A DNA stretch of 64,000 nt from Synechococcus sp. UW140 (GCA_945860085.1 CAMAPJ010000003.1:1-64000), one strand, 5' to 3'; positions 8,492 through 64,000 are shown, numbered from the stretch's first letter. Notes: generated by a model from the sequence alone, not told the origin. Program-made: numbers and translations.

Positions 8492-8667
8492 GGGCGGGAC
8501 TTCACTTTGCCAGCGTCCACCGGTCACCGCTGGCGAATAGCGCTGGCAGATGGGCTGGGGAATGGGGCTAGCGCTGCTCGCCGCAGGCGCCAGGAGCCGG
8601 AGCCTCCAGCCGGAACGGCGCCTCAGCCGGCACCCTTGCTAGCGTCCACCCGGGCGACGGTGCACCC

Positions 8668-9081
8668 TTGAAACGCCGGATCACCCTGCATTTCCCGCGA
8701 GAAGCGGTTCACGAGCCAATCACCTATCGGTTGGCCGTCGAATTTGATGTGGCCGCCAAGATCCTGCGCGCCCAGATCGCCCCCAACCAGAGCGGCACCA
8801 TGGTGGTGGAGCTCTCCGGCGACATCGACGATCTGGCGGCAGCCGAGCAGTGGCTGGAGGCCCAGGGCCTGGGCCTCAACCGCACCCCTGGCCAGATCAC
8901 GATCAATCGGGATCTGTGCGTGGACTGTGGCATTTGCTCCAGCCTTTGTCCCAGTGGCGCCCTGGCCAGCCAGGCTCCCACTTGGCAGCTGCACTTCGAT
9001 GCACAACGCTGCCTCGTCTGTGAGCAGTGCATCCCCAGTTGTCCCCTGGGGGCCATTGCCCTGGAGCTAAAAGGACCCTGA
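8668..9081 (+). CDS. NIL domain plus 4Fe-4S ferredoxin protein
   Basis: Two CxxCxxxCP clusters (CVDCGICSSLCPSGA, CLVCEQCIPSCPLGA) after a NIL-like domain. Confidence 0.85.
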   Translation: MKRRITLHFPREAVHEPITYRLAVEFDVAAKILRAQIAPNQSGTMVVELSGDIDDLAAAEQWLEAQGLGLNRTPGQITINRDLCVDCGICSSLCPSGALASQAPTWQLHFDAQRCLVCEQCIPSCPLGAIALELKGP

Positions 9082-49532: not shown

Positions 49533-52500
49533 ATGGCCCGCGCCCTGGACCCCGCCGGTATGGTCCCCTCGCCCGTTTCCGGAACCCCGGCCCCACTCCA
49601 GCTGGAGTGCAGCACCCAGGCCACCGCCGGCGCACGCCAGGCGCCCCTGCAGCTGGAGCCGGCCGAGGCCAGGCGCACGCTTCAGGCCCTCGATGCCCAG
49701 ATCGAGGCCGTGGTGCTGGCCCGCCAGCACCCGATTAGTGGCCTGCTGCCGGCCAGCACCGCCCACACCGTGCATGGCAACTACGGCGATGCCTGGGTGC
49801 GGGATTGCGTCTATTCGATCCAGTGCGTTTGGGGGCTGGCCCTGGCCTACCGGCGCCTAGGCGGCCACGACACCCGGGCCTTTGAGCTCGAACAGCGGGT
49901 GTTGCAGCTGATGCGCGGCCTGCTGGCGGCGATGTTGCGCCAGGCCGCCAAGGTGGAGCGCTTCAAGATCAGCCTGGCGCCCCTCGATGCGCTCCACGCC
50001 AAGTTCGACACCGCCAGCGGCGAACCGGTGGTGGCCGATGACGGCTGGGGCCACCTGCAACTGGACGCGACGGCCCTGTTCCTACTACAACTGGCCCAGC
50101 TGACCCGCTCGGGCCTGGTGGTGGTTCAGACCAGCCACGAGCGGGACTTCCTCCAGAATCTTGTTTATTACGTGAGCCGCGCCTACCGGGTGGCCGATTA
50201 CGGCATCTGGGAGCGGGGCGACAAGGGCAACCACGGCCTGCCGGAACGCAATGCCAGCTCGATTGGCCTGGTGAAAGCGGCCCTCGAGGCCCTTGATGGT
50301 CTCGACCTCTATGGCCCCCATGGCGACGGCCGCTGCCGGCTGCTGATTCCCCATGACGCAATCGTGCGGCTGCGGCGGGCCCTGCGCAGCCTGTTGCCGC
50401 GCGAATCGGCCAGCAAGGAGGTGGACAGCACCTGCCTGGCGGTGATCGGCTACCCGGCCTGGGCGGTGGAGAACGCGTCGCTGGTCCAGCGCACCCGCCA
50501 GAAGATCCGCCAGGACCTGGGCGGCCCCTACGGCTACAAGCGCTTCCGCCGAGACGGTCACCAGACCGTGATCGAGGACCACACGCGGCTCCACTACCAG
50601 CGCGAGGAGCTGGCCCAGTTCGAGTGCATTGAATGCGAATGGCCCCTGTTCATCGCCTATGAGCTAGTCACAGCCTGCTGCGAAGGGCGTTGGCAAGAGG
50701 CCTGGAGCTGGCGCGACCAGCTCGACCGCCTGGCCGTTGACGTCGAGGGGGTGCCCCTGCTGCCCGAGCTCTACCTGGTGCCGGAGGCGGCGATCAGCGC
50801 CGAACGGCGCCAACCGGGCAGCCAAGTGCGGATTGCCAACCCCAACGTGCCCCTGCTCTGGACCCAGAGCCTCGCCTGGCTGGGAGATTTGATGTTGCAG
50901 GGCCTGCTTCTGCCTGAAGACCTCGACCCCTGTGGTCGGCGCCTAGCCCGCCCCCTCGGCGCCGATCGGGTGCTGGTGGCCCTGGTGCCGGCCAGCACCG
51001 CCATAGGCGAGGCCTTGGCGCAAGCCGGCCTGCCCGTGACCCCGGCCAATCCCGGCCCCGATCAGCCATCCAGCCCGCGGGTGGCCAGCTCCCGGGAGCT
51101 GAGCGAACGGATGGCGGCTGTGGGCGCCAACCCGAAACTGGGCCTCAGCGGCCATCCGGCGGTGCGCATGGAAGCGATGGCCACCGCCCGCCTCTATCGC
51201 TGTGGCGGCGAACAGCTGGCCTTCCTGGCGGCGGTGCTGGAGGAAAGCACCTTCTACCTCTCCGACGATCCCGACCAGCTAGCCGATGCCGTCGGCGCCG
51301 AGCTACGCCTGCTGCAGCGCCACTGGCGCCACAGCCAGCCGCCCCTGCTGCTGATCCCTGTGGCCGAAGGCCCCTTTCAGCGCACCCCCGAGACGATCCT
51401 GCGCCTGGGAGCCCAACTACAAAGCGGCCAGCTCGAGGGAGTACCTGTGCAGCTGGGCCGCCTGGCCGAGCTCCAGGACCTGGCCGGCTGGGTGGAACTA
51501 CCGGCCCAGGCCCAACCGAGCAGCAGCGTCCGGCCCCTGGGGCGCCCGCTGCTGCGTGCCAGCACCAGCAAGCGGACCCTCACGGCCACCGAAGAGCAGG
51601 AACTCGAGGAGATCCCAATTCCCGACCTGGCCGAACGGCTCTGGCGCAGCACCTCCTTGACAGAGCAGGCGGAAGTGCTGGAACAGCTGGTACGGCGCCT
51701 AGGGCCCCACGCCCTGCTGCAGGGTCCGGCCGTCAGCGACAGCGTCGCGTTGCAGGTGCTGGTAGAGGAGATTTACCGCCGCGGCCTGGCCCAGGGGGAC
51801 TGGACCGTGGTGCGCCGCTGCGCCGGCACGATCGGCCTGGTCCATCCCCAACTGGAGGATGCCCTCACCGACCTGCTGGTGCGCCAGAAGCAGGTGGTCG
51901 TGGGCCGCAACTACACCCACGAGTCCCTGATCAGCCAGCCCCAGGGCAGCCTGGCGATCGCCGCCATGATCGAGCGCTTCAGCGGCATCGACGGCCGCGA
52001 ATGGATGCTGCAACAGGAGCTGCTGCTGGCCCTCGATGGCCTGGCCCGCTTAGAGCCGGCCCTGCTCAGCGGCAGCCTAACCCTGCAGCTCGGCCAGTTG
52101 CTGTTGCTGCTGACCGGCGAACTGGCGGCGGAGCGGGATCTCGCCGCCGATGAGGCCTTCGAGGCCCTCTGCGGCCTGGCTCCCCATGCGATCCGGCGGC
52201 GCCTACGGGCCGTGCTCACCGACGTCGAACACGCCAAGGCCACCCTGCAACGCAAGGAACAGCTGCATGTCAGCGGCCGGGTGCGCTGGGAGGTGCCCGA
52301 TCCCCTCGAAGAGCTGCCCCGGGGCAGCGGCTGGCTGCAACACCGCCAAAGGCTCGGGGCCCTGCAGCAGGTGCCGCGCGATTTCTACCCAGGCATCTGG
52401 GACCTGCTGCACCACTGCCGCGGCCTGGTGATCGGCGACAAGCTCGATCGCCGCAACCGACTCGAAAGCGGTCCCTTGATGAGCGAAAAGACCCCGGGCG

Positions 52501-52973
52501 AACGCAACTTCGCCAGCCTGGTGGAACATTTGCTTAGCAAGATCGACGCCTCGGAATACCGCCAGCTCTGCACCGAAACCCTGCTCACCCTGGTGACTTT
52601 CGTCGGTGCCAACCCGGAGGTGCGCTTCAACGACTACCTGGCCCTCGATGTGGTGATCGGCCACGCCGTGCGGGTGGGCTGGCAACAGGAACATCCCGAA
52701 ACCCCCAGCTCCCTCTACGGCCAGCACAAGGCCGAGGCCTGGGACCGCTTCTACGTGTCCTCTCCGGGCCAATGCCGGCGCTGGCAACTGCTAGCCCTCA
52801 AAGAGCTGGCTGAGGGTGAACTGGCCCAGAACCAAGCTGAGGCACAAGGCGGGGCCGCTAACGCGCAAGACAGGACCGCCGACGCGCAAGGCAGGGCCGC
52901 CGGCGACCCGGGTTCAGATCGGAGCGCTCAGGGTCATGCAGATGTTGGGCTGCTCAACACACTGCTCGATTAG
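49533..52973 (+). CDS. GH15-like / phosphorylase b kinase alpha-beta-like protein
   Basis: GNYGDAWVRDCVYSIQCVWGLALAYRR; DYGIWERGDKGNHGLPERNASSIGLVKAALEAL; C-terminal helical repeats. Confidence 0.82.
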   Translation: MARALDPAGMVPSPVSGTPAPLQLECSTQATAGARQAPLQLEPAEARRTLQALDAQIEAVVLARQHPISGLLPASTAHTVHGNYGDAWVRDCVYSIQCVWGLALAYRRLGGHDTRAFELEQRVLQLMRGLLAAMLRQAAKVERFKISLAPLDALHAKFDTASGEPVVADDGWGHLQLDATALFLLQLAQLTRSGLVVVQTSHERDFLQNLVYYVSRAYRVADYGIWERGDKGNHGLPERNASSIGLVKAALEALDGLDLYGPHGDGRCRLLIPHDAIVRLRRALRSLLPRESASKEVDSTCLAVIGYPAWAVENASLVQRTRQKIRQDLGGPYGYKRFRRDGHQTVIEDHTRLHYQREELAQFECIECEWPLFIAYELVTACCEGRWQEAWSWRDQLDRLAVDVEGVPLLPELYLVPEAAISAERRQPGSQVRIANPNVPLLWTQSLAWLGDLMLQGLLLPEDLDPCGRRLARPLGADRVLVALVPASTAIGEALAQAGLPVTPANPGPDQPSSPRVASSRELSERMAAVGANPKLGLSGHPAVRMEAMATARLYRCGGEQLAFLAAVLEESTFYLSDDPDQLADAVGAELRLLQRHWRHSQPPLLLIPVAEGPFQRTPETILRLGAQLQSGQLEGVPVQLGRLAELQDLAGWVELPAQAQPSSSVRPLGRPLLRASTSKRTLTATEEQELEEIPIPDLAERLWRSTSLTEQAEVLEQLVRRLGPHALLQGPAVSDSVALQVLVEEIYRRGLAQGDWTVVRRCAGTIGLVHPQLEDALTDLLVRQKQVVVGRNYTHESLISQPQGSLAIAAMIERFSGIDGREWMLQQELLLALDGLARLEPALLSGSLTLQLGQLLLLLTGELAAERDLAADEAFEALCGLAPHAIRRRLRAVLTDVEHAKATLQRKEQLHVSGRVRWEVPDPLEELPRGSGWLQHRQRLGALQQVPRDFYPGIWDLLHHCRGLVIGDKLDRRNRLESGPLMSEKTPGERNFASLVEHLLSKIDASEYRQLCTETLLTLVTFVGANPEVRFNDYLALDVVIGHAVRVGWQQEHPETPSSLYGQHKAEAWDRFYVSSPGQCRRWQLLALKELAEGELAQNQAEAQGGAANAQDRTADAQGRAAGDPGSDRSAQGHADVGLLNTLLD
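52836..52898. repeat. 21-bp tandem repeat, 3 units, at the C-terminus of the GH15-like ORF
   Basis: Encodes AEAQGGA/ANAQDRT/ADAQGRA. Confidence 0.75.
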
Positions 52974-53906
52974 ATCAGCAAGCTGGAGGGCGCGGGAGGC
53001 CTGCAGGCCATCCACGGCAGGAATTTCGCGGCCGCGCACACATTGGAGGAAGTGCTCCAATTCGGCATAGAGGGGCTCGATCGAGGTGGTGCTCACCTCT
53101 TCGATGAAGCCATCGTTGCGATAGAGCAGTTCGCCGTGGTCGGCGGAAACTGACTGGTGGGTGCGCCGATGGATATGCAGGCTGCGGTTAAGGAAGTCGG
53201 TTTCCACCAGGCTGTCGCGGCAGTGGGCGCTGAGGCTGCGGATCTTGCGATGGGCCATCTTGCTGGCCGTGAGGCTGGCCACCACCCCATTCGCGAAGCC
53301 GAGGGTGGCGTTGACGTAGTCGATTGGGCCGTCGCCACTGCGGCCGCCGGCGGCCGCCAACTGCACCACCGGCGATGCCGCCAGTTCCAACACCAGATCG
53401 ATGTCATGGATCATCAGATCCAGCACGACTGACACATCATTGGCCCGGTCGCCATTGGGGCTGTGGCGCCTGGCTTCCAGCACCACCACCTGCTCGTTGG
53501 CGACCACCTTGGTGAGTTCGCGGAAGGCGGGGTTAAAGCGCTCGATATGGCCCACCTGCAGGAGCCGTGCCGAACCTTCGGCCGCCCGAATCAGGTCAGC
53601 GGCCTCTTCCTGGCTGGCGGCGATCGGCTTTTCGATCAACACATGCAGACCGGCCTGCAGGCATGCCATCCCGACGCGGTGGTGCAGCAGCGTCGGCACA
53701 GCGATGCAGACCGCCTCCACCTCCTGAAGCAGGTCGGTGTAGGAGGGAAACCAGCGACAACCGAACTGCTCGACAGCGAGCTGACCACGCTGGGCATCGA
53801 GGTCGGCGACACCGATCAGTTCGGCATCCCGCAGCAGGCTGAGCACCCGGGCATGGTGCCAGCCCATGTTGCCGATACCGATGACGCCAACGCGTACGGG
53901 CTTCAT
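52914..53906 (-). CDS. Gfo/Idh/MocA family oxidoreductase
   Basis: VRVGVIGIGNMGWHHARVLSLLRDAELIGVADLD; HVLIEKPIA. Confidence 0.93.
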   Translation of the reverse strand: MKPVRVGVIGIGNMGWHHARVLSLLRDAELIGVADLDAQRGQLAVEQFGCRWFPSYTDLLQEVEAVCIAVPTLLHHRVGMACLQAGLHVLIEKPIAASQEEAADLIRAAEGSARLLQVGHIERFNPAFRELTKVVANEQVVVLEARRHSPNGDRANDVSVVLDLMIHDIDLVLELAASPVVQLAAAGGRSGDGPIDYVNATLGFANGVVASLTASKMAHRKIRSLSAHCRDSLVETDFLNRSLHIHRRTHQSVSADHGELLYRNDGFIEEVSTTSIEPLYAELEHFLQCVRGREIPAVDGLQASRALQLADLIEQCVEQPNICMTLSAPI

Positions 53907-53991
53907 GGCGCTGGGGTCGGGGTTGAGGATCACGGCAGCCGGGGGGGCAACAGAAGCGCTCCCTTGATGCCAGCGCCGCAATTATCGACGA

Positions 53992-55260
53992 TCAGCTGTC
54001 CGGCTCGCGGCCCCGGGCGGTGATCTGGACCCGTTCGATGCGCGGGCCATCCATGGCCACGATCACAAACTGATGGCCTTGCCAGCGCAAACTCTCGCCG
54101 GGGGCTGGGATGTGCTGCAAACGCTCCAGCAAAAAGCCCGCCAGGGTGTGGTGGCCATCGGCCTCCGGCAGGTTGAAGGCGAGCTGGCGGTTCAGTTCGG
54201 CGATCTCCAGGTCGCCGGCCACCAGCCAGCTGTCTTCACGCAGCTGCTGGAGGTCGTCATCGGCGCTTTCGGCATCGACGCCATCGCCGACGATTTCGTT
54301 GGTGAGATCGGCCACGGTGACCAGGCCTTCGGTGCCGCCGTGTTCATCCACCACCACCAGCAGCGGCTGGCCGCTGCGAATCACCGGCAGCAAATCGGCG
54401 AGCGAAGCGGTTTCCTGAACCCGGGCCACCGGGGTGATGTAAGGGGCTAGGGGCGTGTCGCTCTGCAGCTGGCCCCGGGCGATCGGTTCGGCCAGGCGAC
54501 GCAGGTCGAGCATGCCGCGCACGTCATCGAGAGACTGGCCAATCACCGGGAAACGGGCGTGGTGGGTGGCATGTACTACCTCCATCATCTCGGCGAAGCG
54601 CACCCCCAACGGCAAGGTGACCATGCCGTTGCGGGGCACCATCACCTCACGCACCTGGGTGTCGCGCAGGGCGAACAGGCCCTCGAGGATGCTGCGCTCA
54701 TCGGGCATCAGGCCGGTGACGCTGTTGGATTCGATCAAGGTTTCCAGCTCGCCGGCCGAGAGGGCGGGCACCAGCTCATCCCAGTTGCGCGGCAAGCCCA
54801 GCAGCCGCAACAACCCATCGCCGAGACGCTCGAGCAGCAGCAGCAGGGGCCCAAGCGTGGCGTTGACCGCCTCCAGCAGGGGGGCCAGCCGCAGGGCCGA
54901 GGCTTCCGGCCGGTGCAGCACCCAGGCCTTGGGCACCAGGCCGCCCACCAGGGTGGCCAGCACCACCAGCATCAGAAAAACCCCCAGGTCGATCCAGGGC
55001 CGCTGGGCGGTTGGATCCCAGCGCACCGCCACGCCGCGGCCGGCCCAGCCCAGGGCCACCAGGGCCAGGGCCGCCCCCAGCTGGGTGGCAACAAGGGCCC
55101 GGCGCAGACGGTGTTGCAAGCGGGCGACGGAGCGGGCGCCGCGATGGCCATCGGCAGCCAGCAGCTGCACCCGGCTGGGGCGCAGATGGATCAGGGCGAA
55201 TTCCCCGGCCGCAAAGAAAGCCAGCAGGGCAAGCAACGCCGCCAGGGCCAGGTAGCGCAT
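53992..55260 (-). CDS. CNNM/CBS-domain (HlyC/CorC-type) membrane protein
   Basis: N-terminal TM domain, VREVMVPRNGMVTL, VVDEHGGTEGLVTVADLTNEIVGD. Confidence 0.92.
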   Translation of the reverse strand: MRYLALAALLALLAFFAAGEFALIHLRPSRVQLLAADGHRGARSVARLQHRLRRALVATQLGAALALVALGWAGRGVAVRWDPTAQRPWIDLGVFLMLVVLATLVGGLVPKAWVLHRPEASALRLAPLLEAVNATLGPLLLLLERLGDGLLRLLGLPRNWDELVPALSAGELETLIESNSVTGLMPDERSILEGLFALRDTQVREVMVPRNGMVTLPLGVRFAEMMEVVHATHHARFPVIGQSLDDVRGMLDLRRLAEPIARGQLQSDTPLAPYITPVARVQETASLADLLPVIRSGQPLLVVVDEHGGTEGLVTVADLTNEIVGDGVDAESADDDLQQLREDSWLVAGDLEIAELNRQLAFNLPEADGHHTLAGFLLERLQHIPAPGESLRWQGHQFVIVAMDGPRIERVQITARGREPDS

Positions 55261-57355: not shown

Positions 57356-57412
57356 AACATCCGTATGGCGGATGGAAAATGGCCGCAGCGGCGGCCCCAC
57401 CAAGCAACACCG

Positions 57413-57425
57413 ATAGCATTGCTAT
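57413..57425. promoter_or_regulatory. Palindromic operator candidate upstream of the RHH antitoxin
   Basis: ATAGCA-T-TGCTAT, 17 nt before the ATG at 57443. Confidence 0.45.
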
Positions 57426-57442
57426 TGACGAGTGGGGGCGTC

Positions 57443-57712
57443 ATGGCTGATCTGTTGGTGCGCGGCGTCGATGACGCCCTGGTTCAGGCGCTCAAGAAGC
57501 GGGCCGGGGAGCAGGGCCGCAGCCAGGAAGCGGAACTGCGGGCCATCTTGGCCGCTGCTTTGGTGAGCCCCCCGCGGCGCAACCTGGCTGAATTACTGGC
57601 TGCCATGCCGGATGTTGGGGTGGACGCCGATTTCCAGCGCCAGGACGATCGAGCAGATCGCCGCCATCGCCTTGCTGCACGATCTCACCATGGTGACGCG
57701 CAACATCGATAA
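57443..57712 (+). CDS. Ribbon-helix-helix antitoxin (FitA/VapB-like), C-terminus altered
   Basis: MADLLVRGVDDALVQALKKRAGEQGRSQEAELRAILAAAL. Confidence 0.8.
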   Translation: MADLLVRGVDDALVQALKKRAGEQGRSQEAELRAILAAALVSPPRRNLAELLAAMPDVGVDADFQRQDDRADRRHRLAARSHHGDAQHR

Positions 57713-57761
57713 CTTCGCCGGCTGCGGGGTGCGGCTGCCCAATCCGTTTCAGGGTCGTTGA
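57645..57761 (+). pseudogene. 3' remnant of a PIN-domain (VapC/FitB-like) toxin
   Basis: Frame 3: TIEQIAAIALLHDLTMVTRNIDNFAGCGVRLPNPFQGR*; catalytic N-terminal part missing. Confidence 0.8.
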
Positions 57762-58981
57762 TGGGCTCCCAACGGCTGATCAGGACCCTCCATCGCCCTC
57801 CGCCCTGGAGATGGTTAGCAGGAGGACGACTCTGGCTAAGGCTGGGGTCAGAACCGCTGTGGCGGGTGCCGCTGGAACTGCTCCAGCAGCTGCACTGGTG
57901 GTTGATTCGTCCCTGGCGTTGGCCAAGGCGCCCGCCCAAGGGCCGGCCAGCACTGCCTTGGCAACTGACCCTGCCGGCCTGCTGGCTGAACAGCTATCGG
58001 CCAGCGGAGGTGTCGTGGTGGTGGGCCCTGGGCGTTCGCTCCTGGAGCCAGCTGGCGCAGTACACCCCAGACAGCCTGGCCGGTGCAATGCATGCAAAGC
58101 GCCGGCAGCACTGGCCGGATCAATGCCGCCCTGCCCTGCAGTTGCTGGCCGACAAAGCGGCCCTCCTTGCCTACACGCCCGAGCGCTGGCGAGCTCCATT
58201 CACGCTGCTCCACCTACAACAAAACATTCATCAGCCCGACGGCATCGATGAGGGACACCCAGAGATTCCGAATTGGTGGTGGGAGGCCTTGAGGGCAGAA
58301 GGAGTGGTGCTCAAGCCCCAACGCGGCCATGCCGGCCGGGGGGTGATCCGTTTCCGCTGGTCTGGCTCAGCCCTGGAGCAGCAGGCCCTATTCGGCCAGC
58401 TTCCGGCTGATGCACCGTATGCAGCCGAAGCACCGCCTGCAGCCGATGCCGAACCTCCCACCCCCGCCCAGCTGCTGGCCCATTGGCATCGGCTCTGCCG
58501 CAGCGACGAACCAGCCCTGGCTGCTCCCTACCTTTGCCACAGCAGCGAGCTGCCGGCCGCCGACCCGGCCGTAGTTGTTCGCGTGATTACCTCCCGGCCA
58601 TCGCCTGGGGGGCCGGTTGCCGTGCAGCAGGCCTGGCTGGAAGTGCCGTTGGGCGAGGGCGCAGTGGCCTTCATCCGTGCGGATGGCGTCAGCCTGCCGA
58701 AGCCAGGGGAGCCGTTGACGGCGGCCCAACAGGACGCTCTGGATCGATGGACACAACAACTCCAAAGCAATGCTCCGTTGTGTGTTCGTGCCTGTTTGGA
58801 GGCAGCGAAGGCCATGCACCAGCGGTTGCCAACCATGGACCAGGTGGCCTGGGACTGGATTCCCGCGTCTCCCGAGCCCTTGCTACTGGAGGGCAATGGC
58901 GGCTTTGGTCTGCTGGTGCCCCAACTGTTTGCCCAGCTCAGTACACCCCCGTGCAGCCTTGAGCCCAGGTCCAATCGCTGA
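57761..58981 (+). CDS. ATP-grasp protein (sugar-transfer-associated ATP-grasp-like)
   Basis: GVVLKPQRGHAGRGVIRFRW; AWDWIPASPEPLLLEGNGGFGLLVPQLF. Confidence 0.7.
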   Translation: MGSQRLIRTLHRPPPWRWLAGGRLWLRLGSEPLWRVPLELLQQLHWWLIRPWRWPRRPPKGRPALPWQLTLPACWLNSYRPAEVSWWWALGVRSWSQLAQYTPDSLAGAMHAKRRQHWPDQCRPALQLLADKAALLAYTPERWRAPFTLLHLQQNIHQPDGIDEGHPEIPNWWWEALRAEGVVLKPQRGHAGRGVIRFRWSGSALEQQALFGQLPADAPYAAEAPPAADAEPPTPAQLLAHWHRLCRSDEPALAAPYLCHSSELPAADPAVVVRVITSRPSPGGPVAVQQAWLEVPLGEGAVAFIRADGVSLPKPGEPLTAAQQDALDRWTQQLQSNAPLCVRACLEAAKAMHQRLPTMDQVAWDWIPASPEPLLLEGNGGFGLLVPQLFAQLSTPPCSLEPRSNR

Positions 58982-59009
58982 GAGGATATCCATATTTGAT
59001 ATGTGAGCC

Positions 59010-59279
59010 GTGCCCCTCAGCCGCAACCCCGAGATCTGTGCCGCTGAACTGGATGGCGAGATGTGCCTGTTCAACCCCGAGAACGCCGAGTATCTGAACC
59101 TCAACGGCACCGGTTCCAGCATCTGGAACCTGCTCGATGCGCCTGCCGAATTGGAAGAGCTGATCTGCAACCTGCAAGCGCGCTACGCCGTGGACCCGGA
59201 GACCTGCCGCCATGAGACGGAAGCCTTTGTGGCAGAAGCGCTCAAGCGAGGCATGCTCGCGGAAGCCCAACCGGCATGA
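59010..59279 (+). CDS. PqqD-family RiPP recognition protein (lasso B1-like)
   Basis: ELDGEMCLFNPENAEYLNLNGTGSSIWNLLDAPAELEELICNLQARYAVDPETCRHETEAFVAEALKRGML. Confidence 0.88.
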   Translation: MPLSRNPEICAAELDGEMCLFNPENAEYLNLNGTGSSIWNLLDAPAELEELICNLQARYAVDPETCRHETEAFVAEALKRGMLAEAQPA

Positions 59280-59707
59280 GGCCGCTGCTGCGCTGGCCCA
59301 CCCGGCTGTTTGCCTATGGTTTGTTTTGTCTGCTGGATCACAGCATCTGGCTGCTGATCCAACTGCTGCCCGGCCCAACGCTGATCGGTTTGGCCCGCCA
59401 GCGCCCCTGGACACGCTGGCAACTGCAGCTCGCCCCAGCCCGGCAGCAGCTCTGGCGCAGCCGCCTGGCTTGGCTGATGCGCACCCGCTGCCGGCGCGCA
59501 GGTTGGGCCAGCACCTGCCTGAGCCGTTCGCTAGGTGGCAGGCTGCTGCTGGATCTGATTGGCGTGGCCAATGAACTGCATCTGGGCATGAGCAAGTTCA
59601 GTGATGGCCGCAAGGTGCCCCATGCCTGGCTCAGAGATCCCCAGTCCGGCCGGCTCTACACCCCTGGGCTCAGCCCTGGCGCTGGTGCGCCCCTCACCCA
59701 GTTCTGA
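59276..59707 (+). CDS. Lasso-peptide B2-type transglutaminase-like protease
   Basis: CLSRSLGGRLLLDLIGVANELHLGMSKF...VPHAWLRDPQSGRLYTPG (Cys/His/Asp pattern); ATGA overlap with the PqqD gene. Confidence 0.82.
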   Translation: MRPLLRWPTRLFAYGLFCLLDHSIWLLIQLLPGPTLIGLARQRPWTRWQLQLAPARQQLWRSRLAWLMRTRCRRAGWASTCLSRSLGGRLLLDLIGVANELHLGMSKFSDGRKVPHAWLRDPQSGRLYTPGLSPGAGAPLTQF

Positions 59708-59722
59708 TCCCCAGCCGCAGTC

Positions 59723-61261
59723 ATGCCTCTTCCGCTGCCCAGCACAGATCCCCAACCTCTGGCCGCGGGGCTTTACAGAACGGATGCCTTCCATCGCCAA
59801 CCCCTTTTTGCGGTGGGCTCCGAGCTGGTGCGCAGCTGGACGGAAGCCCACGCCCTGCATGGGGATGCCCGGCCGGACGATGTGAATCCCGCCTATGTGG
59901 CTGCCCTGATTAGCGGCAACCACAGCGCAGAAGCGGCGCCCTACACCCGCATCCGCCGCTTACCGCGGGCTCAGCACGTGCTGGTTGGTAGCGACGGCGC
60001 GGTGCACGCCAGCGCCTATGACCCGCTAGCTGGTGGGGCAACGGCCATGGAGCCAGAGACGCTGCATCAGTTCCTGCGGCAGGGGTTGCTGGACCACGTG
60101 CAACAGGCCCTGGGGGGGCACAACGGCGCGATCGGCTGCGAGCACAGCAGCGGCCTCGATTCCAATGCGGTGCTCGGTGCCCTGGTGCATGGCATCGGTG
60201 TGGAGCCCCAGCGCTTGCATACCTGGAGCCAGGAAGGGGGCGGTGAGGGAGCTCCCCTGCAGCAGTTCAGGCCGTTTCACCGCTTGCTGCCCGAGCAGTG
60301 CCATCGCTTTGAACCAGGGAATGGTGAAGGGGAGCTGGGCATTGATCTGCTCCAGCAGCAGCTGAATGTGTTTGGGGCTCCAGCCCAAATCGGCGGCAAT
60401 CCCCAGGCCGTGGCGCTGCTGCGCCAGCAGGGCTGCACCGTGCTGTTCAGCGGTTTTGGTGGCGATCAGGCCATCAGCCACAACGCCGCCAATGTGCCCA
60501 GTGACCTGGTGGCGCTGGGGCGCTGGCGGGCCTTGCTGCACTGGATGGGCGGCAGGCGGGCGGCATTAAAAACCGCAGGGGGCCGCGCCCTGGCGCTGAG
60601 CTATCGCCCTTGGGCAGTGAACAAGGTGCTGCGCCGCACCCGCGATTTCTGCTCCAGTGATGTGTTGAGCCGCACGCTCACCCCTGAAGGCAGCAAGTGG
60701 TTAGGGCCTCACATCAAGGAGCAATACCCCTGGGAAATCGATGGCTACCTGAGGCAGCACCACTCGATTCGCCGGCGGGTGCTAGCCGATTGGGTCGCCG
60801 TACGAGCAGAAGACGAAACCCGTCTGGCCGCCTCTCTTGGGATGGCCAAAGCATTTCCCCTGCTGGATGAACGCTTGATTGCGGCCCTACTGCAGCAGGA
60901 TCCGGCGCTGTTTGGTGAGGGTGCTGGCCGCGGGCGGCTGTTGCACCGCAGGGCTTTTGCACCGTTTCTGCCGCCGTTTCTACGCGACAACCCCACCAAG
61001 GACCGTGAGCCAGAAGGCGGCCTAGATCAATGGCGTTCTGAGCTGATCAGCAAGCAACATCAGGCGCTGGAACGCAGCTTGAAGGCAACGAGCGATTGGC
61101 ATCCAGCCCTGGCGAGGTATTGGGATTTGGAGGCGATTCGCCGCGAAACAGAAGACGTGTTGGCCAGCGCTGAGCCGACGATGAAAGGAGTGATGGGCAC
61201 TAGCCGTGCCCTCGCCACCATGAAGGCCCTCAGCGGCTGGTGGCAAGCGCTCGATGGCTAA
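59723..61261 (+). CDS. Asparagine-synthetase-like protein (lasso C/macrolactam synthetase-like)
   Basis: GCEHSSGLDSNAVLGALVHG PP-loop; LFSGFGGDQAISHNA; N-terminus without Met-Cys start. Confidence 0.85.
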   Translation: MPLPLPSTDPQPLAAGLYRTDAFHRQPLFAVGSELVRSWTEAHALHGDARPDDVNPAYVAALISGNHSAEAAPYTRIRRLPRAQHVLVGSDGAVHASAYDPLAGGATAMEPETLHQFLRQGLLDHVQQALGGHNGAIGCEHSSGLDSNAVLGALVHGIGVEPQRLHTWSQEGGGEGAPLQQFRPFHRLLPEQCHRFEPGNGEGELGIDLLQQQLNVFGAPAQIGGNPQAVALLRQQGCTVLFSGFGGDQAISHNAANVPSDLVALGRWRALLHWMGGRRAALKTAGGRALALSYRPWAVNKVLRRTRDFCSSDVLSRTLTPEGSKWLGPHIKEQYPWEIDGYLRQHHSIRRRVLADWVAVRAEDETRLAASLGMAKAFPLLDERLIAALLQQDPALFGEGAGRGRLLHRRAFAPFLPPFLRDNPTKDREPEGGLDQWRSELISKQHQALERSLKATSDWHPALARYWDLEAIRRETEDVLASAEPTMKGVMGTSRALATMKALSGWWQALDG

Positions 61262-62352
61262 GTGCCCAGCACCGCTTGGATGATTAACGCCTGGCGATGG
61301 GCTGCTGCCGCAAGCGTTGCAGCGCCTGGATGCAGTGAGGGTTGAGCTGCAGCTGCCAGCTGATCCAGCAGGCGCAGGTTTGCTGCTCCAATGGCGTTCA
61401 AGCCCTTCTGAGCTAATTGCCGGGCCCCGATCGCGTCGTGGCCGCTGCGTTTAAGGCTTCCTTGCAGTGCCAGCTTGAGCATCGTTTGCACTCGCTCAGG
61501 GTGTTCCTGGTGGCAACACAGGTGGCTGAGCCTCAGACCATCGGGCTCGAGCGTTACACGTGGTGGATCAAAGGGATGCAGGGGTGCTCGTTGGCCTTGA
61601 TGCTCCACTCGAATGGTTCCCACCCCTTCAACCGTGATCTCCAGAGGAGCACTGTGGGCAAACGGGGTGGAGTGATCGCAGTGGCCGTAGTGGAGGGCTA
61701 GATCGAGCACGTCGCGGCGATTGCCGTAGTGGGCAAAACACTCGCGGCTTCCTGCTTGCGCGGTTTTGATCCGCATCGCACCATCGCTGATCGCATAAGG
61801 GGCTCCCTGGTGATGGTGGTTGAGGAGATCAATCAAGGGCATCAGCACCGGCTGGCGATGATCTTTTTCAAGATCGGATCGCCAGCCAAAGCTGCGGGTG
61901 GCCAGGAAGCCCTCGGCCGCCGAGCGTTCCGCCTTGGCCCCATGGCCAGGCTTGAGCGGTGCAAGGGCAGCCGCGACGTTGGCTGAGCCGTCAACAAGCC
62001 GGGCAGGATGCTGGCTGCTCCACCAATGCAACTTGCCAGTGGCGTTGTAGAGCTCGACATGCAGTTGCAGCAGCTCGCGCTGTATCGCGGTGGCGGCTGG
62101 TGGTGGCTGCAGCAACTGCAGGGCATCGGCTGAGCCGGACCATTGGGCCGCCTCAATCGGCAGCAGCAACTCGACGGGCAGGCTGATCAGAGCGCCAGTT
62201 GTTTCTGGTGGTGCCAGCAGGCGCATGGCGCCCTGGGCCACCTCCACTTGCAGCTGGGGATGCCACTGGGCCCCATGGGCAGCGCACAGGTGGGCAATCT
62301 CCGCTAAGAGCGCCGCGGTGGCTGGCTGGTCGCTGGCAATTGCGAGCTTCAT
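61258..62352 (-). CDS. SET-domain-like protein (Rubisco LSMT/SETD-like)
   Basis: GALISLPVELLLPIE; ATRSFGW...PVLMPLIDLLNHHHQGAPY...ECFAHYGNRRDVLDLALHYGHCD. Confidence 0.6.
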   Translation of the reverse strand: MKLAIASDQPATAALLAEIAHLCAAHGAQWHPQLQVEVAQGAMRLLAPPETTGALISLPVELLLPIEAAQWSGSADALQLLQPPPAATAIQRELLQLHVELYNATGKLHWWSSQHPARLVDGSANVAAALAPLKPGHGAKAERSAAEGFLATRSFGWRSDLEKDHRQPVLMPLIDLLNHHHQGAPYAISDGAMRIKTAQAGSRECFAHYGNRRDVLDLALHYGHCDHSTPFAHSAPLEITVEGVGTIRVEHQGQRAPLHPFDPPRVTLEPDGLRLSHLCCHQEHPERVQTMLKLALQGSLKRSGHDAIGARQLAQKGLNAIGAANLRLLDQLAAAAQPSLHPGAATLAAAAHRQALIIQAVLGT

Positions 62353-63740
62353 TCGAACTCGGCTGGTTGGCTGGCGGGCGAGATGGCCACCACACTCCCA
62401 CTGAGCTGATCCGCCGCGCTGCATGGCCCGGGCGTTGTCTCAGGCTGGAAGGGCGGATGGCCCAATCCAACCCAAAAGGTGGTGCCATCGCTGGCGAGTG
62501 ACCAGGCCGGTAGCTCTGCCTCGAAGCTCAGCCGCGGCGTTTGGTTGATGCGCTGACCGCTGGCTTGCACCGCTGTGATCTGGCTGCGCCAGCGCTGTGA
62601 TGCGCGCTGCTCGCTGGTGAGCAGCAACCAGCCCGCTTGGTTGGCAATCAGATCCATTGCCTGAACGCCGGATCTCAGAGGAATGGGCTGGACCTGAATC
62701 CTGCCGGACTCACCTTTTTTGGCAATGAAGGCCAGACGCCGGGCCGGATCATCACGCCAGGGGCCCAGGCTGCCAATCCAAGCCAGCTGGTTTTGGGCGG
62801 GGGTGGCCCGCTCAATCCAGGCAAAGCGCTGCCCAGCCCCGGGTACTCCTGGCAGCAGATCAATTGCGCTGATGTCTTGGCGCGCTTGCCAAAGGCCATC
62901 TGGCCTCAATTGGTGCACCGCCGCAAAACGCTGCCAGCGGCCGCCGGCCTGCAGCCAACGCTTAAGACCTGGCCCTGGCAACGCCTCAACGGCAAACAAT
63001 TCGCCAGCTAGGGGCAGCAGGGCCGTGGCCCGCCTGCCCGCCAGCCGTTGCACGCTCCAGCGGCTGCCGCCATCGCGCGACACCGCCAGCGCCGAACCAT
63101 GGCGTTCCAGCGCAGGACCTGAGGTCACCGCGTCCGGCACATTGCCGGCAACCACCATCGCGCCTTGGTGCCAGGCCAGGTCGTAGGCGTGAATGAAGCG
63201 AGGCAGCCTGCGCTCTTGCCACCACAGGCTGCCAGTGCTGGAGCGGCGGTAGAGATTGCCCCAGCGCCAGCTGCCGCGGGCATCGGCACCGGTGATCCAG
63301 AGCTGCTGGCCATGGGGCACAAAGCGGCTGATCTCCTCCTCGCTCAGGCTTGCCTCCTGCAGCCAGCGCCCTTGATCGAGGGCATAGGCCCACACCGGCA
63401 CTGGGCCTGCGTTAGCAGTGGGACCGTCGTTGGCGGCATTGCCTAAGCCCACGTAGAGCCGCCCGTCAAAGCGCGCAAGATCCCAGGGGGTGCGCGGCAG
63501 GCTCTGCCAGCAGGCGGGGTAGCGCAGGGCGGCGGGATTGCCCAGGTTGCGGGCCTGCCAGCCTTTGCTGAGCACCTGCAGCGGCGCCGCCGTTGGTTTG
63601 CTGCTTGCTGGTTGCTGCCAAGGCAAGGGGGGGAGCAGCGGCAGGCTGTAAGCCGGCTCGAGCTGGGGCCAGAGCCAGCGGGTCAAGCCAACGCCGGCCA
63701 TTAAGGTCGCGGCAAGGGCCGTCCACTCCTTCTGCCCCAT
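62349..63740 (-). CDS. N-terminally anchored beta-propeller-like protein
   Basis: N-terminal hydrophobic segment WTALAATLMAGVGLTRWLW; repeated SRDGGSRWSVQRL / LYVGLGNAA / FWVGLGHPPF blades. Confidence 0.6.
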   Translation of the reverse strand: MGQKEWTALAATLMAGVGLTRWLWPQLEPAYSLPLLPPLPWQQPASSKPTAAPLQVLSKGWQARNLGNPAALRYPACWQSLPRTPWDLARFDGRLYVGLGNAANDGPTANAGPVPVWAYALDQGRWLQEASLSEEEISRFVPHGQQLWITGADARGSWRWGNLYRRSSTGSLWWQERRLPRFIHAYDLAWHQGAMVVAGNVPDAVTSGPALERHGSALAVSRDGGSRWSVQRLAGRRATALLPLAGELFAVEALPGPGLKRWLQAGGRWQRFAAVHQLRPDGLWQARQDISAIDLLPGVPGAGQRFAWIERATPAQNQLAWIGSLGPWRDDPARRLAFIAKKGESGRIQVQPIPLRSGVQAMDLIANQAGWLLLTSEQRASQRWRSQITAVQASGQRINQTPRLSFEAELPAWSLASDGTTFWVGLGHPPFQPETTPGPCSAADQLSGSVVAISPASQPAEFE

Positions 63741-64000
63741 GCCGCCCGACTTCATCAGCCAGCGCATCCTGCCTCGGCTACAGCGGTGGCGGCTTGTGGC
63801 TCGCTTGGCCCGGGAAGCCGGCTGGCGCCACCTGAGCGGCCTGGCGCTGCTGAGCGGCTTGAGCAGTGTGCTGGATATCGCCGGCCTGGGCGTTGGTGTG
63901 TCACTGCTGCTCGGTGCTGCCCCAGGCACCAGCTGGCAGCTGCCGGTGCAACTCCCCTTGCAGCAGGGGCTGGCGGTATTGGTGGGGCTGATGCTGTTGC
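63739..64000 (+). CDS. Probable ABC transporter permease/ATP-binding protein, truncated at window end
   Basis: MPPDFISQRILPRLQRWRLVARLAREAGWRHLSGLALLSGLSSVLDIAGLGVGVSLLL; open to the window end. Confidence 0.6.
   Translation, partial: MPPDFISQRILPRLQRWRLVARLAREAGWRHLSGLALLSGLSSVLDIAGLGVGVSLLLGAAPGTSWQLPVQLPLQQGLAVLVGLMLL

Follow-up and report, generated by a model that had tools for sequence, protein, structure and literature searches.

What kind of peptide is made at the end of a 64,000-nucleotide stretch of Synechococcus sp. UW140 (GCA_945860085.1, CAMAPJ010000003.1:1-64000; hereafter the window), where lasso-type maturation genes stand beside an ATP-grasp-like and a SET-like gene? A preliminary description had proposed a possibly undescribed type of ribosomally synthesised and post-translationally modified peptide (RiPP). 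Our analysis argues for another answer, which we consider very probable: paeninodin-like lasso-peptide pathways have a cyanobacterial branch, represented by this locus and equipped with extra decoration enzymes. The proposal of an undescribed type was set aside because the full locus, the W(-15)xxP...T(-2) leader and the C-terminal serine of the precursor agree with what is known of those paeninodin-like lasso peptides whose clusters encode a kinase and a nucleotidyl (NTP) transferase. Lasso pathways with a phosphorylated tail have been characterised mainly in Bacillota and Proteobacteria.

Core enzymes and extent of the locus

The window corresponds to bases 1-64000 of contig C3 (71,804 bp), with identical numbering, and its end cuts the cluster, whose remaining genes, through precursor A at 69757-69933 (plus strand), were read on the same contig (L003, contig C3 63001-71804). 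The order is ATP-grasp-like, B1, B2 and C on the plus strand, SET-like and "propeller" on the minus strand, and then D, a GT2 glycosyltransferase, an NTP_transf_5 gene (minus strand), a kinase, a sulfotransferase and the precursor. The open reading frames (ORFs) listed in the preliminary description were all present in the window, and the genes most telling for the kind of cluster (kinase, NTP_transf_5, GT2, sulfotransferase), as well as the precursor, all lie outside it.

The family matches of B1, B2 and C place this among the lasso-type clusters. B1 (59010-59279, plus strand, 89 aa), a discrete PqqD-like RiPP recognition element (RRE) and predicted leader binder, scored 65.4 bits against PF05402 (cut-off 23.4), its best NCBIfam model being lasso_PqqD_Bac (56.7 bits, under the cut-off of 80). 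B2 (59276-59707, plus strand, 143 aa) overlaps the end of B1 and is predicted to be the leader-removing cysteine protease; in hidden Markov model searches, named beforehand as the test of this call, it passed the cut-offs of both PF13471 (38.8 bits) and NF033537 lasso_biosyn_B2 (38.3 bits), and its presumed catalytic Cys81 and His116 were unchanged across six homologues. C (59723-61261, plus strand, 512 aa), an AsnB-like putative macrolactam cyclase, was over the cut-off of PF00733 (34.6 bits), and its PP-loop S-S-G-x-D-S and the motif SGFGGDQ were likewise unchanged across six homologues. A search for a plasmid-borne relative of C found none. The suspected start of an ABC exporter belongs to D (63739-65466, plus strand, crossing the window end at 64000), confirmed beyond the window on the same contig with 66.9 bits against ABC_tran. 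The RRE, B2, AsnB-like and exporter calls of the preliminary description were thus borne out.

Downstream of D lie the GT2 glycosyltransferase (65459-66313, plus strand; Glycos_transf_2, 63.9 bits), the NTP_transf_5 protein (66210-67709, minus strand; 117.3 bits), an HPr-kinase-like kinase (67526-68485, plus strand; Hpr_kinase_C, 32.4 bits, cut-off 33.3) and a sulfotransferase (68482-69399, plus strand; Sulfotransfer_1, 78 bits). In characterised systems, PadeK, with the kinase motif His-Lys-Asp-Asp, phosphorylates the C-terminal serine of its precursor, and the nucleotidyltransferase PsmN is required for the addition of hexose to that phosphate (PMC9266682). All seven kinase homologues read here retain these residues (His, the Lys of the P-loop and both Asp).

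Complete or near-complete clusters were also found on four unrelated contigs (L007, L017, L053 and C70). The last of these (L004:149-8752) is a second, divergent cluster in the same genome (G000, contamination 2.9%), with D, GT2, NTP_transf_5, kinase, sulfotransferase, B1, B2, a C protein of 59% identity and a candidate precursor at 8576-8752. In G075, the kinase gene (L018:6-907) is split by a frameshift, which suggests decay of that cluster. The G258 cluster (L017:2037-5698) adjoins apparent polysaccharide-export genes, Wza-like and Wzc-like by eye; some kinase/lasso loci of Bacillota are likewise reported beside such genes.

The precursor family

The candidate precursor of the locus, MTSADRNDLMPAQEKLEWVTPKISLMDAGDTS-GSGKKFPIFPNEGPKYQTDPVNQGVS, was located through a WxxP-type motif search, and a protein search of 398 Cyanobiaceae genomes revealed relatives in seven other genomes, three precursors being present in G261 and two in G080. 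Thirteen precursors were compared, among them those relatives and the ones adjoining clusters L007, L017, L018 and C70. All 13 carry WxxP in the leader, and when every one is numbered with this W as position -15, threonine occupies position -2 in 11 of them, with Ile in L017 and Ser in C70. Glutamate stands at core position 9 in 9/13, a count that no column equalled in any of 100,000 within-core shuffles, and an acid (Asp or Glu) is found at core positions 7-9 in ten. A register with W at -17, as in the bsf leaders, was considered and dropped, since W(-15) is the one in which T(-2) and the acid at 9 line up consistently. Of the 12 precursors whose end can be read, 11 terminate in serine and one, L033c, in Gln; L035, which runs off its contig, was excluded from this count, and L036b was counted to its ...GPS, after which the frame continues without a stop.

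Leader and core differ sharply in conservation, with a mean identity among the ten closest precursors of 76% in the last 19 residues of the leader and 12% in the core. Across species, a constant leader thus precedes a core that changes almost entirely, and a single set of enzymes appears to act on many different peptides.

An independent control came from a Paenibacillus kinase locus, whose precursor NWQAPVVEALEISETM-AGAGTKYID...TIS lies beside K, B1, B2 and D genes and presents W(-15), T(-2), Asp9 and a C-terminal Ser, that is, the same register. Leaders of the paeninodin type (PbaA) also have W at -15, which is recognised by a pocket of the RRE dedicated to it (PMC13381572).

Several observations weigh against the assignment to paeninodin-like lasso peptides. 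The precursor of the locus itself has no Asp or Glu at core positions 7-9, its first acid being Glu12, and the first acid is Glu10 in L035 and L036b and Glu7 in L038; these deviant positions could reflect a variable ring size, a shifted cleavage site or no cyclisation. No precursor passed the cut-off of NF033524, the NCBIfam paeninodin model, the only match being that of L018 in G075 (16.4 bits versus 27, E 0.0077), and C scored 38 against the lasso cyclase model NF033535, whose curated cut-off is 525. In addition, the assembly of the source genome is fragmented, with an estimated completeness of 85%, and several of the relatives are metagenome-assembled genomes.

Part of these data would fit a linear or otherwise cyclised, heavily decorated RiPP that borrows lasso-type enzymes, in which the precursor of the locus would be phosphorylated, glycosylated and sulfated and not threaded, much as in the linear polyphosphorylated peptides (LPPs) of Bacillota. 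The first acid at Glu12 is in its favour, and so is a lasso-type locus on an alphaproteobacterial (Thalassobaculum) plasmid (L061:5372-14776), with B1, B2, C, two HPr-kinase-like genes, two sulfotransferase-like genes and a gene with a weak match to 2OG-Fe(II) oxygenases; the candidate precursor of that locus, WSAPRLSLLPIENTL-GPSTFSSGQAAHVS, has no Asp or Glu in the core. The LPPs, moreover, share with our locus an RRE, an HprK-like kinase, an NTP transferase, an MsbA-like exporter and a conserved N-terminus followed by a variable C-terminus. However, they have YxxP, a SipW-like signal peptidase and no C, hallmarks not seen here, where WxxP, B2 and C are present instead; and a C with an intact PP-loop was retained in the clusters that are readable throughout, with Glu9 dominant in the precursor family. 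We regard this alternative as improbable.

Directly 5' of the ATG of several precursor genes, at the expected ribosome-binding site, we noticed about one to five copies of a heptamer repeat, TGCCTGC (L033:3420-3453, L035 near 2400, L033 upstream of 2925 and of 5850, and contig C3 just before 69757). This repeat could tune or switch the translation of the precursor.

ATP-grasp, SET-like and neighbouring genes

The ATP-grasp-like ligase (57758-58981, plus strand, 407 aa) reached 22.3 bits against PF14397, under the cut-off of 31.4, but its terminal D-W-I...LLEGN motif was retained down to 27% identity among five homologues. C was present in six of 300 Cyanobiaceae genomes, and the ATP-grasp profile matched five of these six and none of the 294 C-negative ones, apparently the same 300 (Fisher P 3e-10). 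A copy of 47% identity heads the G682 cluster, and the C70 cluster has no ATP-grasp gene on its contig. The gene is a true member of the cluster. Structural information was scarce, as sequence searches of the PDB with the ATP-grasp, C and "propeller" proteins returned nothing usable, and the AlphaFold models of the ATP-grasp protein (predicted local distance difference test, pLDDT, 40) and of the SET-like protein (pLDDT 41) were unusable, with too few homologues.

The SET-like protein (61258-62352, minus strand, 364 aa; probable start at 62352, with a longer ORF to 62424) had no Pfam match, and a search of the genome with the SET model PF00856 gave no match up to E 10. Its sole match to a PDB profile was SETD6, over the NH/YG motifs, at a weak E of 0.068; the protein is a putative, weakly identified lysine methyltransferase. 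Its association with the cluster is clearer. It was detected in two of 121 genomes searched and, with targeted searches added, in 4/10 lasso-positive genomes, compared with 0 of roughly 115 others (P 2e-5, a value to be read with an approximate lasso-negative number and non-random groups). It lies near lasso genes in G000, G261, G285, G075 and L005, convergent with C in the window, L005 and G261 and with B2 in G075 (37% identity), whereas the G285 copy is frameshifted and 3 kb from a lone precursor. From this co-occurrence in four genomes plus L005, the SET-like gene is cluster-associated. It is missing from clusters L007, C70, L017 and L053, and in the sister cluster L007 it was deleted together with most of the "propeller" gene, both ends of which remain as a scar. 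A chance bystander, as the absence from L007 had suggested, became a weaker candidate, given that every genome in which the gene was detected also has lasso genes, mostly adjoining it, and given that scar. The neighbourhood conservation named as a check in the preliminary description was found for the ATP-grasp gene and, with these gaps, for the SET-like gene.

The SET-like gene shares an ATGA stop/start overlap with the neighbouring "propeller" gene (62349-63740, minus strand, 463 aa; probable start at 63740, with a longer ORF to 63929, both located in the sequence), and the two are probably co-translated because of it. The product of the latter is uncharacterised: it had no family match in Pfam or NCBIfam, the propeller label that it had been given found no support in any search, and the gene, which may be a chance bystander, was seen only in the close group.

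A new RiPP class would place the defining chemistry in these genes, for example a graspetide-like ring closure by the ATP-grasp enzyme with a contribution from the SET-like protein. The tight co-conservation of the ATP-grasp gene with C and the rarity of the SET-like gene, which adjoins lasso genes, are what such a class would lead one to expect, but the C70 cluster lacks the former on its contig and L007, C70, L017 and L053 lack the latter. Furthermore, the ATP-grasp protein matches only PF14397, weakly, which is a sugar-transfer-associated ATP-grasp family, and the cores show no repeated graspetide-like motif of acid, Thr or Ser, their one conserved feature being the lasso acid at position 9. 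We consider this class very unlikely.

Just upstream of the cluster, a FitA-like antitoxin gene (PF22513, 49 bits) was found at 57365-57761, its ORF continuing into an out-of-frame remnant that resembles the end of a PIN-type toxin. Further upstream, at 49533-55260, lie a large glycoside-hydrolase-like gene, a Gfo/Idh/MocA-type oxidoreductase gene and a gene for a CBS-domain membrane protein (by eye). The same trio borders lasso genes not only here but also in L005 and G075 (L042:14603-16938 and L043:2782-6039); in the latter, C, D, A and K are about 30 kb from that flank, with transposase genes between, pointing to a conserved but rearranged location.

Proposed pathway and comparison with known systems

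The paeninodin-like reading can be cast as a sequence of steps, each of them modelled on characterised relatives and laid over the gene content, precursor family, register and co-occurrence observed here. B1 would bind the precursor of 50-60 aa through its W(-15)xxP leader, and the HPr-kinase-like enzyme would phosphorylate the C-terminal Ser. B2 would then remove the leader by a cut two residues past position -2, which holds Thr or, in divergent members, Ile or Ser; C would activate the side chain of Glu9 and close a nine-residue ring by joining this side chain to the N-terminus. The NTP_transf_5, GT2 and sulfotransferase enzymes probably assemble a group bearing sugar and sulfate on the phosphorylated tail, the ATP-grasp enzyme may ligate a further group, the SET-like protein may methylate lysine, and D would export the product. 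By precedent, the products of the locus would be lasso peptides whose tail is phosphorylated and probably carries further decoration. The natural variants, which keep leader and enzymes and change nearly the whole core, are suited to testing the tolerance of a lasso cyclase, and the ATP-grasp ligase linked to the pathway is a candidate new tailoring step.

The closest known systems are those of paeninodin and pseudomycoidin (pade and psm, Bacillota), with which the locus shares W(-15)xxP, T(-2), a discrete RRE, B2, C, an ABC exporter, K, N and the C-terminal Ser. It differs from them in its cyanobacterial host, in the added ATP-grasp, GT2, SET-like and "propeller" genes, in a C far under the score of the curated lasso model and in precursors under the cut-off of NF033524. 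The bsf cluster of Bradymonas sediminis (A, B1, B2, C, D, K, N) has the same core plus K and N, and its pathway is documented with Ile(-2) (PMC10368454), as would apply to the L017 precursor; in contrast, the target of BsfK is Ser3 instead of the C-terminal Ser, and the bsf gene list, as far as it was available, does not include ATP-grasp, GT2 or sulfotransferase genes. A putative sulfotransferase gene is also known from lasso clusters of Firmicutes (Zhu et al. 2016, reviewed in PMC8498205), where it and a nucleotidyltransferase gene adjoin the lasso core; the parts of that review consulted mention no ATP-grasp or SET-like gene and report no sulfated products.

In the open-access literature searched, no description of a phosphorylated-tail lasso pathway in picocyanobacteria was found, although an earlier mention is possible, and as far as that literature shows, neither this group of hosts nor the added ATP-grasp and SET-like genes nor so variable a precursor family has been described before. 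Picocyanobacteria do possess another family built on a conserved leader and a hypervariable core, sometimes with several precursors per cluster, namely the prochlorosins. A speculative and rather unlikely extension of our reading would make the locus their lasso-based counterpart, a rapidly diversifying library on a fixed leader, with phosphorylated, glycosylated and sulfated tails, lysine methylation by the SET-like protein and rings larger than nine residues (Glu10, Glu12) in some members; to our knowledge, this would be the first case among RiPPs of a SET-family enzyme methylating lysine. The likeness lies in this organisation, whereas the prochlorosins are lanthipeptides matured by one promiscuous enzyme, ProcM, and their chemistry and leaders are unrelated to those described here.

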